The position numbers were made by a program, and so were the translations under genes. From Candidatus Peribacteria bacterium (GTDB taxonomy: Bacteria > Patescibacteriota > Gracilibacteria > UBA1369 > LOWO2-01-FULL-3): DNA of 64,000 bases. Of the stretch, positions 32,662-39,737 are shown in pieces (within the stretch, counting starts at the first letter, position 1; each line of letters begins with the position of its first letter). The stretch lies in NCBI GenBank assembly GCA_943357285.1, contig CALRGJ010000005.1, forward strand, positions 19,935 through 83,934, read 5' to 3'. Below the pieces are notes generated by a model that made no database searches, was not told the DNA's origin, and saw only the letters and a list, made by a program, of their open reading frames with translations.

Positions 32662-33870
32662 CTAAATCTTGATTTTGGCAAGCTTGATCGCTGCCTCATT
32701 GATTTCTTCGAGAGTTGGCATCAATGCGAATCTGACATAGCCAGCGCCAGGATTGATTTTTCTTCCATTATAATCACATTCATCAGAGATCAAACTTCCC
32801 GGAGTCACTACGATTCCAATCTCAGGATCTAATAGTTTTTTTGCAAATTCCACATCAGTCATTCCAGCCGGAACTTTTTGCCAGATGTAGAATGTAGCTT
32901 TCGGCATTTCAGCCTCTAGACCAATTGCCCGCAAACCATTAATTAAAATCTTAGCTTTTTCTTTATAAAGTTCTCTCATCTGACCCACATGCACATCATT
33001 CTCCAAAGCCTTAATTGCCGCCTCCTGAATAATATTTGGTGTACCGGAATCTATATTGGTTTTCAAAAGTTTATAAACATTTACCACTCCCTCATCTCCC
33101 GCCACGAATCCTACGCGATATCCGGTCATATTATTACGTTTGCTCAAAGAGTAGAAAGCAATGATTCCCTCTCTTCCAAGCCCTAATTCATCGGCAGCTT
33201 GTAGAATAGAAATCGGCGCTTCGTCAAAATAAATATCAATATAACAACCTTCATCCGCTGCAATCACAATGTCGTATTTGCGAGCCCATTCTATTAGTCC
33301 TTTGTAGTAATTTTTATCTGCCACTGCTCCAGTCGGAGAATTCGGATAATTAGTCCAAATAATCTGCGCCTTCTTTGCGATCTCTTCCGGAATTGCTTTG
33401 TAATCAATCAGAAAATTATTTTCTTTTAATAACGGCGCATAAAATGGAGTTCCTTCAGCAAAAAATGTTCCGGTCTTCATCGGTGGATATCCTGGAGAAG
33501 GACAAATCACCACATCACCTGGATCCACAAACGCTTCAGAAAAATTAAATATCGCCTCCTTTGAACCAATATTGGAAGAAATTTCTTTTTCAGGATCGAG
33601 AGTCACACCAAATCTACGTTTCATGTAATCTGCTGCAGCCACACGGAATTCTTTCAAACCCACGTAGCTTGGATATCCAGTAAGCACATGCTTCTTTGCA
33701 GCCTCTACGAGGGCATTCACTACAAAGTCGGGAGTTGGCTCGCTCGGATCACCTACTCCGAAATCTATGGCCTTTACGCCGCTTGCACGCAATGCTGCAA
33801 CTTTGTCATTAATTTCTTTAAAGGCATATGCCGGTAAACTTTGTAAACGTTTTGATGGCTCTATTTTCAT
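32662..33870 (-). CDS. dapL: LL-diaminopimelate aminotransferase-like class I/II PLP aminotransferase
   Basis: IDFGVGDPSEPTPDFVV, NYPNSPTGAVADK, YSLSKRNNMTGYRVGF; in DAP operon. Confidence 0.85.
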   Translation of the reverse strand: MKIEPSKRLQSLPAYAFKEINDKVAALRASGVKAIDFGVGDPSEPTPDFVVNALVEAAKKHVLTGYPSYVGLKEFRVAAADYMKRRFGVTLDPEKEISSNIGSKEAIFNFSEAFVDPGDVVICPSPGYPPMKTGTFFAEGTPFYAPLLKENNFLIDYKAIPEEIAKKAQIIWTNYPNSPTGAVADKNYYKGLIEWARKYDIVIAADEGCYIDIYFDEAPISILQAADELGLGREGIIAFYSLSKRNNMTGYRVGFVAGDEGVVNVYKLLKTNIDSGTPNIIQEAAIKALENDVHVGQMRELYKEKAKILINGLRAIGLEAEMPKATFYIWQKVPAGMTDVEFAKKLLDPEIGIVVTPGSLISDECDYNGRKINPGAGYVRFALMPTLEEINEAAIKLAKIKI

Positions 33871-35147
33871 ACTTCAGTTGTTTTATATAAATCTTCAAAA
33901 GTTTCTGCTCGGCGGATCATACGCAATTCGCCATTTTCCTGCAATAAATATTCCGCATGTCTTGGTCTTCCATTGTAATTATGTCCCATAGCAAAAGCAT
34001 GTCCTCCACAATTGTGAATGAGAACGATGTCGCCGATTTCACATTTTTGTAATAATCTATCTTGCGCTAACTGATCATTATTTTCACAAATTCTGCCGAC
34101 GATGGAAACGAGTTCTTTTTCATCACTTTCTTTCATCACAGTGGCATGATGGTATGCGCCATAAATTGATGGTCTTGGCATGTCGTTTGAGCTCGCATCT
34201 ATTCCCACAAATTTTTTGTAAGAATCTTTTATCACAATTACTTTTGAAACCAGCCATCCGGCATCCGCTGCAATAAAACGTCCAGGCTCAGCCATTAATC
34301 TCGGTTCCTTTAATCCGTACTCTTTACACTTTTCATCGAAAGCTCCGCGAATACTTTTTGCCACGACTTCCATATCGAGACTTTTTTCTTCCGGTTTGTA
34401 TGGCACGCCAAAACCTCCACCCATATTCATAAATTCAATTTCAATTCCGGTTTTATTTTTAATATCAGCCACAATATCAAACAATTTTCTAATGATGCCG
34501 GCAAAATAATCTTTGTCTTCCATCGGCACATTGCTGCCAGTCATCATGTGAATTCCGAAATGTTTCACGCCCATTTCTTTGGCCTTCTCATAGGCTTCAT
34601 ATGCTTTTTCGAACGGAACGCCGTATTTGGCATTTGGTCCGGCAAAAACATTGCTAGCGATCGTTGCTTTGCCCACACCAGGATTAATACGAAAAGAAAT
34701 AGTTTCAGGAACGCTCAATGCTCCATCTCCCACAAAAAAATCTAACATGCTCACGTCATCTAAATTCAGAATAAATCCCGCATCTTGTGCCACTTTTAAT
34801 TCACTCGCCGGATTATAATTCCCAGTAAACATTCCGCCGACTTTCAATTTTTGTCCGAGAATTACCTCTGTATCGCTCGACGCATCAAACTCAAATCCTT
34901 CGCTGATTATAATTTTCAAAACTTCCGGATTAGAGTTGGCTTTTACAGCATATAGAGGCTGAAACGCGCCCTTCCCATCCACACCCGGGAAATATTTCGT
35001 AAACGCTCCCCTCAAATTTCTGCAATTTTCTCGGAGTCTTTTCTCTTCATACACGAAGAATGGGGTCTCAAATTCTTCCACAGCTTTTTTTATCCCCGCC
35101 TCCGGATAATAAATAACGTCTTTATTTTCTTCGGTCTGCATATTCAT
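33867..35147 (-). CDS. lysA: diaminopimelate decarboxylase
   Basis: TPFFVYEEKRLRENC, YAVKANSNPEVLKII, FMNMGGGFGVPY, EPGRFIAADAG. Confidence 0.9.
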   Translation of the reverse strand: MNMQTEENKDVIYYPEAGIKKAVEEFETPFFVYEEKRLRENCRNLRGAFTKYFPGVDGKGAFQPLYAVKANSNPEVLKIIISEGFEFDASSDTEVILGQKLKVGGMFTGNYNPASELKVAQDAGFILNLDDVSMLDFFVGDGALSVPETISFRINPGVGKATIASNVFAGPNAKYGVPFEKAYEAYEKAKEMGVKHFGIHMMTGSNVPMEDKDYFAGIIRKLFDIVADIKNKTGIEIEFMNMGGGFGVPYKPEEKSLDMEVVAKSIRGAFDEKCKEYGLKEPRLMAEPGRFIAADAGWLVSKVIVIKDSYKKFVGIDASSNDMPRPSIYGAYHHATVMKESDEKELVSIVGRICENNDQLAQDRLLQKCEIGDIVLIHNCGGHAFAMGHNYNGRPRHAEYLLQENGELRMIRRAETFEDLYKTTEV

Positions 35148-35262
35148 TTTTAAATTTATAGTTTTTTAAATTTCCTTCGTTGACGTATTTATTTTTAGAT
35201 TTACTATTCCCCGCCGGCGGGACTTTTCAATCTGTTGATTTTTACCGCGCACCAACGCCCCC

Positions 35263-36165
35263 TCAAATTAATCCATACTGCTTAATAGTCTCTTCTAAAT
35301 ACTCCTTTGTTTTATCTTCCGGTTCACACATCGGCAATCTGAAAGATAGCTCACATAAGCCCATTCTCGATGCAATATATTTTACTGGAATTGGATTTGT
35401 TTCTACGAAAATATCTTTGAATAAACGCACCAAATTTGTATTAATTTTTTCTGCCTCTTCAAAATTTCCTTCACTCGCAAATTTCACCATCTCACTCAAT
35501 TCTTTTGGAACTAAATTTCCAGCCACAGACACCACTCCATCTCCACCGTTCTTCATCACCTCTATTGTCAGTCCATCATCACCTGAAAGCACTGTAAAAT
35601 CAGCCGGTCTTCTCGCTAGTACATCTTTAATTTGAACCATATCGCCGCTCGCTTCCTTCACTCCCACAATCATCGGATGTTTAGCAATTTCCATCAAAGT
35701 ATCCGTCTCAATATTTACGCCGGTACGTCCCTTAATATTGTAAACAATTATAGGCAATCCCAATTCCGCTAAAGCCAAATAATGTAGTCTCAAACCTTTC
35801 TGAGTCGGCTTATTGTAATATGGAGAAACGATAAGACAGCAATCCACACCAGCCTTCTTAGCATTGCCAATATATTCGCTCGCTTCATGAGTAGAATTAC
35901 TTCCTGCGCCTGCCATTACCATTACTCTCGGTCCACCTGCAGCTACCGCTTTATCTCTTTCCTCCACCACAATTTGGAAAATTTTTGCATCTTCTTCGGT
36001 CGTAGTAGTGGGAGATTCGCCCGTTGTGCCTACCGGTACAATTCCAGTCACTCCACTAGCGATTTGTCTCTGCACCATATTGCGTAGAGCCGATTCATCA
36101 ACGCTTCCATCTTTAGCAAATGGCGTCACTATCGCGGTCCATGTTCCTGCATATTTTCTTGGCAT
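35263..36165 (-). CDS. dapA: 4-hydroxy-tetrahydrodipicolinate synthase
   Basis: GTWTAIVTPFAKDGSVD, GIVPVGTTGESPTTT, VSPYYNKPTQKGL, GVKEASGD. Confidence 0.97.
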   Translation of the reverse strand: MPRKYAGTWTAIVTPFAKDGSVDESALRNMVQRQIASGVTGIVPVGTTGESPTTTTEEDAKIFQIVVEERDKAVAAGGPRVMVMAGAGSNSTHEASEYIGNAKKAGVDCCLIVSPYYNKPTQKGLRLHYLALAELGLPIIVYNIKGRTGVNIETDTLMEIAKHPMIVGVKEASGDMVQIKDVLARRPADFTVLSGDDGLTIEVMKNGGDGVVSVAGNLVPKELSEMVKFASEGNFEEAEKINTNLVRLFKDIFVETNPIPVKYIASRMGLCELSFRLPMCEPEDKTKEYLEETIKQYGLI

Positions 36166-36195
36166 ATAATTAGGGTAATAATTTACGAAATAAAA

Positions 36196-36945
36196 CTATC
36201 CATTCAAAAAATCTTCCATCTCAAAGTATCCCTTTTTACCAACTATCCACTCCGCCGCCTTCACCGCTCCTAGAGCATAGCCATCACGACAACGCGCCTC
36301 ATGAGTAATAGTGATTCTGTCTGCAGCTGAATCAAAACCAATAGTGTGTCCGAAGTTTACTAGACCACCTCTCACAGATGAAAAATGAATTTCGTTCATC
36401 TCGCGTTTGCGATCTAATTTGTCCTCCACTACTGCAGTTTTTCTTTCAATATTTTCTAGCAAAATTTTCTCCAAAGTTTTTGCCGTACCAGATGGGGAAT
36501 CTACTTTATTACAGTGGTGGATTTCAGTTCCCCACACATCATATTCATCGAATTTATTTACCAATTTTGCTGCCGCCTCCACAATTTTGAAATACATATT
36601 TACGCCAATAGAAAAATTTGAGGACCACAGAAATCCTATCTCGCCGCCACCATCTTTTGCTCCCACGATTTTTTTCATTTCATCTGATTTCCCATACCAT
36701 CCAGTCGCACCTTCCACCAAATTCACCCCCGCTTCTTTACAAATTTTTAAATTTTCCATAACTGCATCTCCACCGGAAAAATCAATCACCACATCTATGC
36801 CTTTTAGCATCAGCACATCCAATTTTTTAGCTGTTGCTTCAGCAGCACTTGGATCCACAATCACTGGCACTTCATGCCCTCTTTCAAGTGCAATTGTTCT
36901 CACCACTTTTCCCATTCCACCAAACCCTAGTAATGCAATTTTCAT
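36196..36945 (-). CDS. dapB: 4-hydroxy-tetrahydrodipicolinate reductase
   Basis: IALLGFGGMGKVV, VVIDFSGGDAV, SSNFSIGVN, EIHHCNKVDSPSGTAKTL. Confidence 0.95.
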   Translation of the reverse strand: MKIALLGFGGMGKVVRTIALERGHEVPVIVDPSAAEATAKKLDVLMLKGIDVVIDFSGGDAVMENLKICKEAGVNLVEGATGWYGKSDEMKKIVGAKDGGGEIGFLWSSNFSIGVNMYFKIVEAAAKLVNKFDEYDVWGTEIHHCNKVDSPSGTAKTLEKILLENIERKTAVVEDKLDRKREMNEIHFSSVRGGLVNFGHTIGFDSAADRITITHEARCRDGYALGAVKAAEWIVGKKGYFEMEDFLNG

Positions 36946-37021
36946 AATAATTACAGATTAGAAAGTGTCCCCATGAACATATTAGAAATAAAATTTTGAA
37001 TCGGTCAACTTTTCCTTTTCC

Positions 37022-38083
37022 CTAAACAAATAACATCGCAATCTCTACTGCATTTAGCGCCGCACCTCGGAGCAACTGATCTCCACTCACAAATAATTCC
37101 AATCCATGATCTCCGAAAATCAAACTCTGACGAATTCTGCCCACCTCCACGTTAAACTTTCCAGCAGCGTTTATAGGCATAGGATAGAGGTTTTTGCTCA
37201 CATCGTCCACTAGATCAACACCTGGAGCACTACTCAAAACCTCACGAGCGCCCTCCACTGTCACAGGCTTCTCAGTTTCAATCACAATGCTCTCGCTATG
37301 TGCACGAAGAGTCGGAATTCTCACTGCTGTACATGAACACGCAATATTCTCATCTCCAAAAATTTTTCTAGTTTCCCAAGCCACTTTCATTTCCTCTTTT
37401 GTGTAACCATTCTCCTGAAATTTATCGATATGTGGAATAATATTGAAAGCAATTTGATGAACAAAAAACTTTGGACTCGCTTCTGAACCAGCCTTCACTT
37501 TTACATGTTCCGGATCCAATAATTCCTCAATTCCCTTATTGCCCAAATCATTCCCCTCAAAAACAGCGCGAGTCTGGTCTACTAATTCTTTCATTCCTTT
37601 TGCGCCCGCTCCGCTAGTAGCCTGATATGTCGAAACAATCACCTTCTTCAAGCCAAATTTTTTATAAATTGGCCATAGCGCCATCGCTGCAATCGCTGTA
37701 GTACAGTTTGGGTTTGCGATCACGCCAGGATTCACCTTCGCTGCTTCAGAATTCACTCCAGGAATCACCAAAGGCACATCTTTCTCATATCTAAATGCTG
37801 AAGAATTATCCACCATCAAGCATCCAGCTTTCACTACGCGGTCTCTCCACTCCTTGCTGATATCGCTTCCTGCTGAGAAAAGAGCCACGTCACTTTCTTC
37901 AAAAACTTTATCGGAAATTACTTCGCAAGCCACGTCTCCGAATGGAGTTTTAATTACTTTTCCTAAAGATTTTTCTGATGCCACTAGTCTCAACTTCCCT
38001 ACTGGAAAATTCAAAGCCTTGAGACAATTAATCATCTCCACACCCACCGCCCCTGTCGCCCCTACTATCACTACATTTTTCAT
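37022..38083 (-). CDS. asd: aspartate-semialdehyde dehydrogenase
   Basis: VVIVGATGAVGVEMINCL, VDNSSAFRYEKDVPLVIPGVN, NPNCTT, TYQATSGAG. Confidence 0.97.
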   Translation of the reverse strand: MKNVVIVGATGAVGVEMINCLKALNFPVGKLRLVASEKSLGKVIKTPFGDVACEVISDKVFEESDVALFSAGSDISKEWRDRVVKAGCLMVDNSSAFRYEKDVPLVIPGVNSEAAKVNPGVIANPNCTTAIAAMALWPIYKKFGLKKVIVSTYQATSGAGAKGMKELVDQTRAVFEGNDLGNKGIEELLDPEHVKVKAGSEASPKFFVHQIAFNIIPHIDKFQENGYTKEEMKVAWETRKIFGDENIACSCTAVRIPTLRAHSESIVIETEKPVTVEGAREVLSSAPGVDLVDDVSKNLYPMPINAAGKFNVEVGRIRQSLIFGDHGLELFVSGDQLLRGAALNAVEIAMLFV

Positions 38084-38192: not shown

Positions 38193-39509
38193 TCAATCTA
38201 TAAAAAATTTATTAAATACTTTTTTCACTACTTCCTGCACCTCCGCTTCCTTCACCAAGAAAGTAATATTTCTTTTTGAAGAACCTTGAGAAACCATGCT
38301 TACATCATGTTCTTGCACAGCTGTAAAAAGATCTAGTAATGCCAATTTGTCGTGAATAATTCCCGCACCCACAAGACACACGATAGCCATTCCCTTCTCT
38401 ACTCTCACGTTTGCAAATTTGCTCAATTGATCTATTACTTTATCCGCTTCACCATTATCTACCGTCACAGACACGCTCACCTCAGAAGTGGAAACTACAT
38501 CCACATCGATATGAGCCTTCGCGAAAATCTGGAAAATCTTAGACATAAATCCGGGAGCACTGAGCATGCCCGCGGAACAAATATTCACGATGGTAATATT
38601 CTTTTTGAAAGTCACAGATTTAATAGATTCTTCTTCTTCATTTGTGATCAAAGTTCCCGGTGCACTTGGATTAAAAGTATTCAAAATTTTCACCGGAATA
38701 TTTTTTGCAATCGCCGGTTTAATAGTTTTTGGATGCAACACTTTTGCTCCAAAGAAAGCCAACTCTGCCGCTTCCTTGAATGATAATTTTGGTAGAACTT
38801 TTGCTCTTGGCTCATTCCTTGGGTCGAAATTGAAAATTCCATCCACATCAGTCCAGATTTGTAATTCACTGGAGTTTAAAGCTCCGGCAACAATTGCTCC
38901 ACTATAATCACTTCCACCACGTCCTAGAGTAATATATTCACCAGTTTCAGATTGACCGATAAATCCAGTCACTACCGGAATCACTCCACTCTTCAAAAGT
39001 GGAACCAATTTTTCTTCGATTGCTTTATAAGTTTTTTCGAAATCCACATTTCCCTCGCCAAAATTATTATCTGCAAAAACCAATTCATAAGAATCTACGG
39101 CCACACTCTTAAATCCATTCTTTTTCAAAACTTCCGGCAAAATATTGCTGCTAATTCTTTCGCCAAATCCGGAGATTTTATCTTTCATATAAGTAAGAAG
39201 TTCTCCTTTTTTCTGAACTTCTTCACAACACTCTTTCAATTCTTTCCATAAGTTTTCTAAATTCACAGTCACTCCCAATTCTGCCAAAATTGCCTCATGT
39301 TTTTCTACTAGAACCTTAATGCCTTCTTGCCAATTTCCACCAGTTGCAGCAGTTTCTCCCAGTAAAATTAATTTATCAGTCGTGCCTGAAGTTGCTGATA
39401 CTACCGCGGTTTTAGCACCAGGCATCTTGCCTAATATATCAGCAACTTGCTGAATCGCTTTTGCTGACCCCATTGATGTACCACCGAATTTTGCTACTAC
39501 GTTTTCCAT
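38193..39509 (-). CDS. lysC: aspartokinase
   Basis: VVAKFGGTSMGSAKAI, GFIGQSETGEYITLGRGGSDYSGAIVAGAL, C-terminal ACT region. Confidence 0.97.
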   Translation of the reverse strand: MENVVAKFGGTSMGSAKAIQQVADILGKMPGAKTAVVSATSGTTDKLILLGETAATGGNWQEGIKVLVEKHEAILAELGVTVNLENLWKELKECCEEVQKKGELLTYMKDKISGFGERISSNILPEVLKKNGFKSVAVDSYELVFADNNFGEGNVDFEKTYKAIEEKLVPLLKSGVIPVVTGFIGQSETGEYITLGRGGSDYSGAIVAGALNSSELQIWTDVDGIFNFDPRNEPRAKVLPKLSFKEAAELAFFGAKVLHPKTIKPAIAKNIPVKILNTFNPSAPGTLITNEEEESIKSVTFKKNITIVNICSAGMLSAPGFMSKIFQIFAKAHIDVDVVSTSEVSVSVTVDNGEADKVIDQLSKFANVRVEKGMAIVCLVGAGIIHDKLALLDLFTAVQEHDVSMVSQGSSKRNITFLVKEAEVQEVVKKVFNKFFID

Positions 39510-39532: not shown

Positions 39533-39643
39533 AAAAAAAGTCTCGCGCTTTAGGCGGAGACTAGGTTCTAAGAAATTCAGAATTCTAAGAACTTACTCCG
39601 CTGGGAGCATCTTCTTAGTCTTCTTTAGTTCTTTCCTTTCCAT
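39533..39643 (-). promoter_or_regulatory. candidate lysine leader-peptide attenuator of the lysC operon
   Basis: Terminator hairpin 39539-39562 with 7-nt U-tract; competing antiterminator pairing 39596-39601 with 39554-39559; upstream Lys-rich mini-ORF. Confidence 0.72.
39593..39643 (-). CDS. 16-aa lysine-rich leader peptide MERKELKKTKKMLPAE
   Basis: ATGGAAAGGAAAGAACTAAAGAAGACTAAGAAGATGCTCCCAGCGGAGTAA; 5 Lys plus 1 Arg in the first 11 residues. Confidence 0.68.
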   Translation of the reverse strand: MERKELKKTKKMLPAE

Positions 39644-39667
39644 ATGATTATTACGTTAACGGGCTCA

Positions 39668-39695
39668 ATTTTATCTGAAGCTTCTCATTTGTCAA
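39668..39695 (-). promoter_or_regulatory. putative lysC operon promoter
   Basis: TTGACA-16 bp-TAAAAT on minus strand, between upstream terminator and leader ORF. Confidence 0.7.
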
Positions 39696-39708: not shown

Positions 39709-39737
39709 TAAAAAGGATCCCCGACAAAGGGATCCTT
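39709..39737 (-). terminator. terminator of SLH-like gene
   Basis: AAGGATCCC TTTGTC GGGGATCCTTTTTT on minus strand. Confidence 0.85.

Follow-up and report, generated by a model that had tools for sequence, protein, structure and literature searches.

The lysC-asd-dapB-dapA-lysA-dapL operon of this Candidatus Peribacteria genome is very probably preceded by a ribosome-mediated attenuator of transcription, with charged tRNA-Lys as the signal sensed. The window (the whole 64,000-nucleotide stretch of DNA analysed) was given this trp/his-style reading in a preliminary description, and it is supported by the conservation of lysine mini-ORFs in relatives, by compensatory changes in the pairing arms and by modelled ribosome states, together with the lack of a riboswitch match.

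Anatomy of the leader and its operon

The leader lies on the minus strand between the terminator of the upstream gene and lysC. Direct reading bears out the preliminary description as regards that terminator, the promoter, the run of seven T ahead of lysC and the complementarity of GCGGAG to CTCCGC (39559-39554) within the 5′ arm of the attenuator terminator. The lysine-rich ORF is likewise present, but the 17 codons ascribed to it include the stop codon and the peptide has 16 residues. The features are:

39710..39735, minus: intrinsic terminator that closes the upstream gene and insulates the leader; GGATCCC-loop-GGGATCC (39735-39715) then a T-run, read directly
39668..39695, minus: sigma-70-type promoter TTGACA-16-TAAAAT; TTGACA at 39695-39690, TAAAAT at 39673-39668
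39593..39643, minus: leader-peptide gene, MERKELKKTKKMLPAE; read directly, with KKxKK in frame in relatives
39611..39625, minus: regulatory codons AAG AAG ACT AAG AAG (KKTKK); AAGAAG columns invariant in the ten-leader alignment
39604..39618, minus: region 1, CUAAGAA and CUCC, with partners UUCUUAG and GGAG (1:2 hairpin); from the MFE fold, RNAalifold consensus and pair counts
39596..39601, minus: region 2, GCGGAG, the antiterminator strand, immediately 5′ of the stop codon
39585..39591, minus: UUCUUAG 3′ of the stop codon, partner of the Lys codons (1:2) or 5′ arm of the inner hairpin
39565..39592, minus: inner hairpin GTTCTTAGAA/TTCTTAGAAC, lying between region 2 and region 3, seen on removing region 1
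39554..39562, minus: region 3, AGTCTCCGC, common to the antiterminator (2:3) and the terminator (3:4)
39533..39548, minus: region 4, GCGCGAGACT and T-run, forming the attenuator terminator with region 3
38193..39509, minus: lysC, aspartate kinase, first gene of the operon; NCBIfam TIGR00657 above cut-off
32662..38083, minus: asd, dapB, dapA, lysA and a dapL-type aminotransferase; NCBIfam

The promoter has 11 of 12 consensus bases with a 16-nt spacer. The attenuator terminator reads AGTCTCCGC-CTAAA-GCG(C)GAGACT plus seven T on the minus strand, its T-run ending 23 nt upstream of lysC; it was not listed by the terminator pattern scan because of its bulge, and is shown by folding. A further element, absent from the preliminary description, is the 1:2 hairpin, formed by pairing of the Lys codons (39618-39612) with 39591-39585 and of CUCC (39607-39604) with GGAG (39599-39596). 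It completes the trp-type layout of the leader. All the features by which an attenuator is recognised at sequence level are thus present, including tandem codons for the end product and an intrinsic terminator between the mini-ORF and the first gene.

The gene identities proposed for the operon were confirmed with NCBIfam, where the equivalog closest to lysC is lysine-sensitive aspartokinase 3, with a score just under its cut-off. The genome carrying the window is 1.21 Mb in size and 99% complete and has tRNA-Lys genes with the anticodons UUU and CUU. The guess that it belongs to the CPR was correct, its named relatives being Candidatus Peregrinibacteria/Peribacteria.

Proposed mechanism and modelled ribosome states

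RNA polymerase would initiate at the promoter and transcribe the leader, and a ribosome would translate MERKELKKTKKMLPAE. With ample Lys-tRNA the ribosome would reach the stop codon and mask region 2; region 3 would therefore pair with region 4, and transcription would stop before lysC. With scarce Lys-tRNA it would stall in KKTKK and mask region 1, so that region 2, released from the 1:2 hairpin, could pair with CUCCGC around the inner hairpin (the 2:3 antiterminator) and the polymerase would continue into the operon. Without a ribosome, the leader of the window is predicted to adopt the 1:2 hairpin plus the terminator, an off state.

The window leader folds at -37.6 kcal/mol (z = -4.1), with none of 200 shuffles equally good. 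Its MFE structure is a long hairpin (CUAAGAA/UUCUUAG, CUCC/GGAG) followed by the terminator, and the inner hairpin appears once region 1 is removed. Folding with ribosome masks, which the preliminary description had proposed, gave the expected on and off states in the window: with region 4 not yet made, the antiterminator probability was 0.00 without a ribosome, 0.99-1.00 with a ribosome stalled at Lys and 0.00 with a ribosome at the stop codon. The last of these values was obtained in all 15 of the lysC leaders compared (see below). In the finished transcript at equilibrium, the terminator was still preferred in several stalled states, and the switch must therefore be kinetic, being decided during transcription, as is also held to be the case for the trp attenuator.

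Sequestration of region 2 by the 1:2 hairpin in the absence of translation, which is seen in the window, is weaker or absent in some other leaders. A ribosome-free antiterminator is possible in nine of the 15 (L006, L008, L009, L046 and five diverged leaders), so the untranslated default varies between species.

Leaders in related genomes

Genes for lysC were searched for in the family, order and class of the window's genome and their upstream regions were inspected individually. Fifteen lysC loci (the window and 14 others) have the leader; six families of the order to which the window belongs are represented, and one family from a different order. All 15 share a mini-ORF that carries Lys codons in frame and has region 2 at its stop codon or close to it, and in each a terminator comes after region 3. 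The number of in-frame Lys codons ranges from three to eight, and these include adjacent ones in every leader except L028. The KKxKK mini-ORF occurs in nine genomes of the window's family (window, L003, L005-L010, L012) and in G217 (L046), from another order of the class. Five further families of the order have diverged leaders, with the peptides MQIFLSLSKKSSKKTTLRLERANSR (L025), MNLPSQLKKNKKAKKTLKKGRFDA (L026), MKSTIKLANKIKNNSILLRG (L028), a peptide of 31 residues ending KSLDVKKPGKVR (L029) and MNIILAVIFGAKKKIAPTRQ (L030). The leader peptides, of 15-31 aa, do not align outside the Lys block; the frame and the Lys codons are nonetheless kept. The preliminary description had asked for a Lys-rich mini-ORF in relatives, and had taken relatives lacking the Lys codons or the alternative pairing as evidence against its reading; both are retained.

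In the 15 leaders the stop codon is so positioned that a terminating ribosome would cover region 2, which starts at most 8 nt from the stop codon in 13 and lies immediately 5′ of it in six. Placement is less exact in L025 and L026, where region 2 starts 16-21 nt upstream of the stop codon. A promoter similar to that of the window is found 19-24 nt 5′ of the start codon in 11 of the 15, and a transcription start inside the mini-ORF, which had also been named as a possible objection, is therefore unlikely.

Of the 14 lysC genes in the class that have dapB, dapA or lysA downstream on the same strand, 13 carry the leader. It is also present at L010, whose contig ends past asd, and at L029, where asd is the next gene and the dap genes are on the opposite strand, and is absent at 13 lysC genes of other families (L047-L059), in whose fetched loci neither dapB nor dapA occurs. 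The single exception among the 14 is the congener G015 (L004/L032, CALRGV010000019.1), in which the promoter and the start of the lysC operon are kept and the mini-ORF is absent, with only CTCGCTGGATGAGGGCTTTTTT remaining of the leader; this represents either a loss of control or an assembly deletion. The leader and lysine operon of L046 (G217, family f22) closely resemble those of the window, though from another order, while the lysC genes of other members of its family are leaderless, which suggests transfer of the operon together with its attenuator.

A covariance model built from ten leaders, including that of the window, gave a single match in the window's own genome, namely the window leader (E = 1e-13), and across 341 genomes of the class its matches at E 1e-10 to 1e-15 were nine lysC leaders. 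The five most diverged lysC leaders escape the model, and its silence is therefore not evidence of absence.

Complementarity and covariation

As MAFFT shifts region 3 by one base or more in alignments, the 2:3 pairing was tested by cross-species duplex energies and not by column counts. In a set of 18 leaders (15 Lys, 3 Thr), which like all leaders compared here are phylogenetically non-independent, the duplexes of regions 2 and 3 with their own partners averaged -10.5 kcal/mol against -6.7 kcal/mol for permuted partners, and none of 20,000 permutations reached the observed value. The corresponding p was 0.0003 for the ten closest leaders alone and 5e-5 for ten diverged leaders. Helices can be wholly replaced yet remain complementary, an example being UUAGAGAG/CUCUCUAA in L025. 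The permutation test thus shows that the antiterminator, mutually exclusive with the terminator, has been kept in evolution, and the compensatory changes expected in relatives are found, 2:3 complementarity surviving the divergence of sequence.

The 1:2 pairing also favours own over permuted partners (p = 0.0005 for all 15; 0.008 without close congeners). This hairpin was chosen unaided by RNAalifold, with 91.8% of cells paired against 46-63% on sliding, and a covariation of 0.293 against 0.197 on shuffling (0 of 500 shuffles). Its Lys-codon side covaries in L005, which has CCAAGAA/UUCUUGG where the window has CUAAGAA/UUCUUAG.

Codon choice and translation start

AAG accounts for 79% of the Lys codons in leaders as against 24% in the genes of the window, and the lysC genes of leader-bearing loci mostly use AAA for Lys. 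AAG in the leaders may be chosen for sensitivity to starvation or for pairing with UUCUU. There is no Shine-Dalgarno motif at the window mini-ORF. However, of the 42 window ORFs that reach 180 aa or more, 41 likewise lack a Shine-Dalgarno-like motif upstream of their ATG, and its lack at the mini-ORF is therefore no argument against translation; judging by these upstream regions, window genes seem to start translation by another route. Translation of the mini-ORF is suggested indirectly by the retention of its frame and codons in relatives.

Alternative explanations

An RNA binding a metabolite or tRNA (a lysine riboswitch, a T-box or a new aptamer), coupled to a terminator and with the mini-ORF incidental, would also fit an RNA structure that is real, conserved and capable of alternative pairing. 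It is nevertheless improbable, as no riboswitch or T-box matches the window, either at the gathering threshold or with E values as high as 10. Covariance-model searches of the window gave no match to RF00168 (the lysine riboswitch), the Rfam T-box model or the Rfam amino-acid leaders (His, Leu, Thr, Trp), and RF00168 was found in 0 of 341 genomes of the class, with controls positive; the fit of a lysine riboswitch to this region, which the preliminary description had named as grounds for rejecting its reading, is thus not seen. Furthermore, the Lys codons, start and stop stay in frame despite changes in sequence and length, the stop codon tracks region 2, and some 116 nt offer scant room for an aptamer besides the attenuator arms. 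Control by leader ORFs of translation or of Rho access occurs in other bacteria, and the position of the ribosome could in principle govern lysC translation or Rho access here and not intrinsic termination. This is highly improbable given that every one of the 15 leaders has a terminator after region 3, ending in the window 23 nt before lysC, and that the lysC start takes no part in the competing pairs.

The conservation of a Lys-rich peptide would also be expected if it were a functional small basic protein, the terminator merely setting its level relative to lysC, and leader peptides able to act in trans are described for S. meliloti trpL in the abstract of PMC7298713. However, residues beyond the Lys block are unconserved, whereas codons and RNA arms are conserved, and such a role is equally remote. 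A fortuitous combination of A-rich sequence with an ordinary terminator might be suspected, since the genome is AT-rich and a loose pattern of KK codons and GC arms is common in the class, but is scarcely credible in view of the fold z-score of -4.1, the cross-species permutation tests and the model matches at 1e-10 to 1e-15, which are lysC leaders only; it is refuted by conservation in relatives. A class-wide search with the loose DNA pattern itself (Lys codons and GC arms) gave many chance matches and was discarded as evidence.

Comparison with known systems

Leader-peptide attenuation is well known for tryptophan or histidine, and lysine genes are textbook riboswitch targets. Like E. coli trpL, the window leader has tandem regulatory codons, competing 1:2, 2:3 and 3:4 hairpins, a terminator with a U-run and a stop codon near region 2; it differs in sensing lysine (on the reading of an attenuator preferred here), in preceding lysC, in having no Shine-Dalgarno motif and in its unrelated sequence. 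The Thr leader of gamma-proteobacteria (RF00506, thrA) is also an attenuator ahead of an aspartate-kinase gene. Its codons, however, are Thr/Ile and not Lys, it serves another branch of the aspartate pathway, and it has no match in the window. The L-box (RF00168) resembles the window leader in controlling lysC or lysine operons of other bacteria by RNA structure, but through an aptamer for free lysine, and no such aptamer was matched here; lysine has been listed as an L-box target (PMC1262725).

In a 2013 survey the amino-acid attenuators of Rfam comprised only those for His, Leu, Thr and Trp, others being known for Ile/Val and Phe (PMC3766115), and according to a 2010 paper, which added the Firmicutes, leader peptides had been known only in Proteobacteria and Actinobacteria (PMC2965389). 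The nearest published hint of a lysine leader peptide is SEP5 of S. meliloti (PMC10117765). This small ORF contains a cluster of six codons for Thr and three for Lys, lies in the 5′ UTR of a gene of the aspartate pathway and has been put forward as a possible leader peptide. It differs from the window leader in belonging to an alphaproteobacterium, in its mixed Thr/Lys codons and in preceding an aspartate dehydrogenase gene, and the passage on it that was consulted describes no alternative RNA structure. Searches of the open-access full-text literature found no published attenuator with a lysine leader peptide and no case of leader-peptide attenuation in Patescibacteria; within that literature both the lysine specificity and the lineage are new for trp/his-like attenuators.

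An attenuator for lysine in Patescibacteria adds one specificity and one deep lineage. It would imply that minimal uncultured cells couple translation and transcription tightly enough for attenuation, without Shine-Dalgarno motifs, and that lysine synthesis is regulated by the supply of charged tRNA, and it offers a regulatory part that can be tested, from organisms for which hardly any genetics exists. It seems somewhat probable that lysine is a new attenuation specificity and that, at the same time, the device is general for amino-acid genes in Patescibacteria of this class. If so, it would comprise Lys leaders (of lysC operons and other genes), thrL-like leaders of aspartate kinase genes of the Thr type and a candidate leader for Trp/His, replacing riboswitches and T-boxes in a class that initiates without Shine-Dalgarno motifs.

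Other leaders

Outside the class, four lysC loci were inspected and a possible leader was seen in one and none in three. The one (L135, G674, of another class) has a GTG-start ORF (V)ANSLRVQNKSKKSQLSRCGFLGVGHR and a terminator upstream of lysC and is a possible Lys leader outside the class.

Weaker matches of the covariance model within the class include three Lys leaders before other genes (L110/L113, L111, L112). L110/L113 (G108:C18:25543-25662, minus) comprises tandem leaders, MNMSTIKKSKKSKLRQW then MPNYKLMRRISNKRKKVLPIKR, with a terminator after each, which precede an unknown protein of 355 aa and a histone-deacetylase-family protein, and are perhaps linked to the use of acetyl-lysine; the genes of that genome at this locus stay open when TGA is read as Gly. 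Both L111 and L112 are Lys leaders upstream of unrelated short ORFs. The other weak matches (E 0.004-0.1) are mostly ordinary terminators with A-rich sequence, and one is a candidate Trp/His leader. Lys leaders lie before dissimilar ORFs of ~115 aa with no Pfam match at L114:203-319 (MQFFSSTKKMKKTSLAGR) and L115:270-385 (MQLFTSKKEMKKTTLTGR).

Other aspartate-kinase genes of the class are preceded by thrL-like leaders (L031, L068, L069, all minus), with the peptides MNQKSPLKVTIIISTTTSI, MFMSRLVTITTTTITTITS and MKFVTMITTMTKITK respectively and with region 2/3/4 pairing; two of these kinases are long frames of about 780-815 aa. A candidate Trp/His attenuator is found at L123:358-492, where the mini-ORF MYIYFKTKQTWQNIWHHFLSHWR has three Trp and three His codons and a terminator, with a tryptophanyl-tRNA synthetase-type gene farther downstream (L123:3068-3736).
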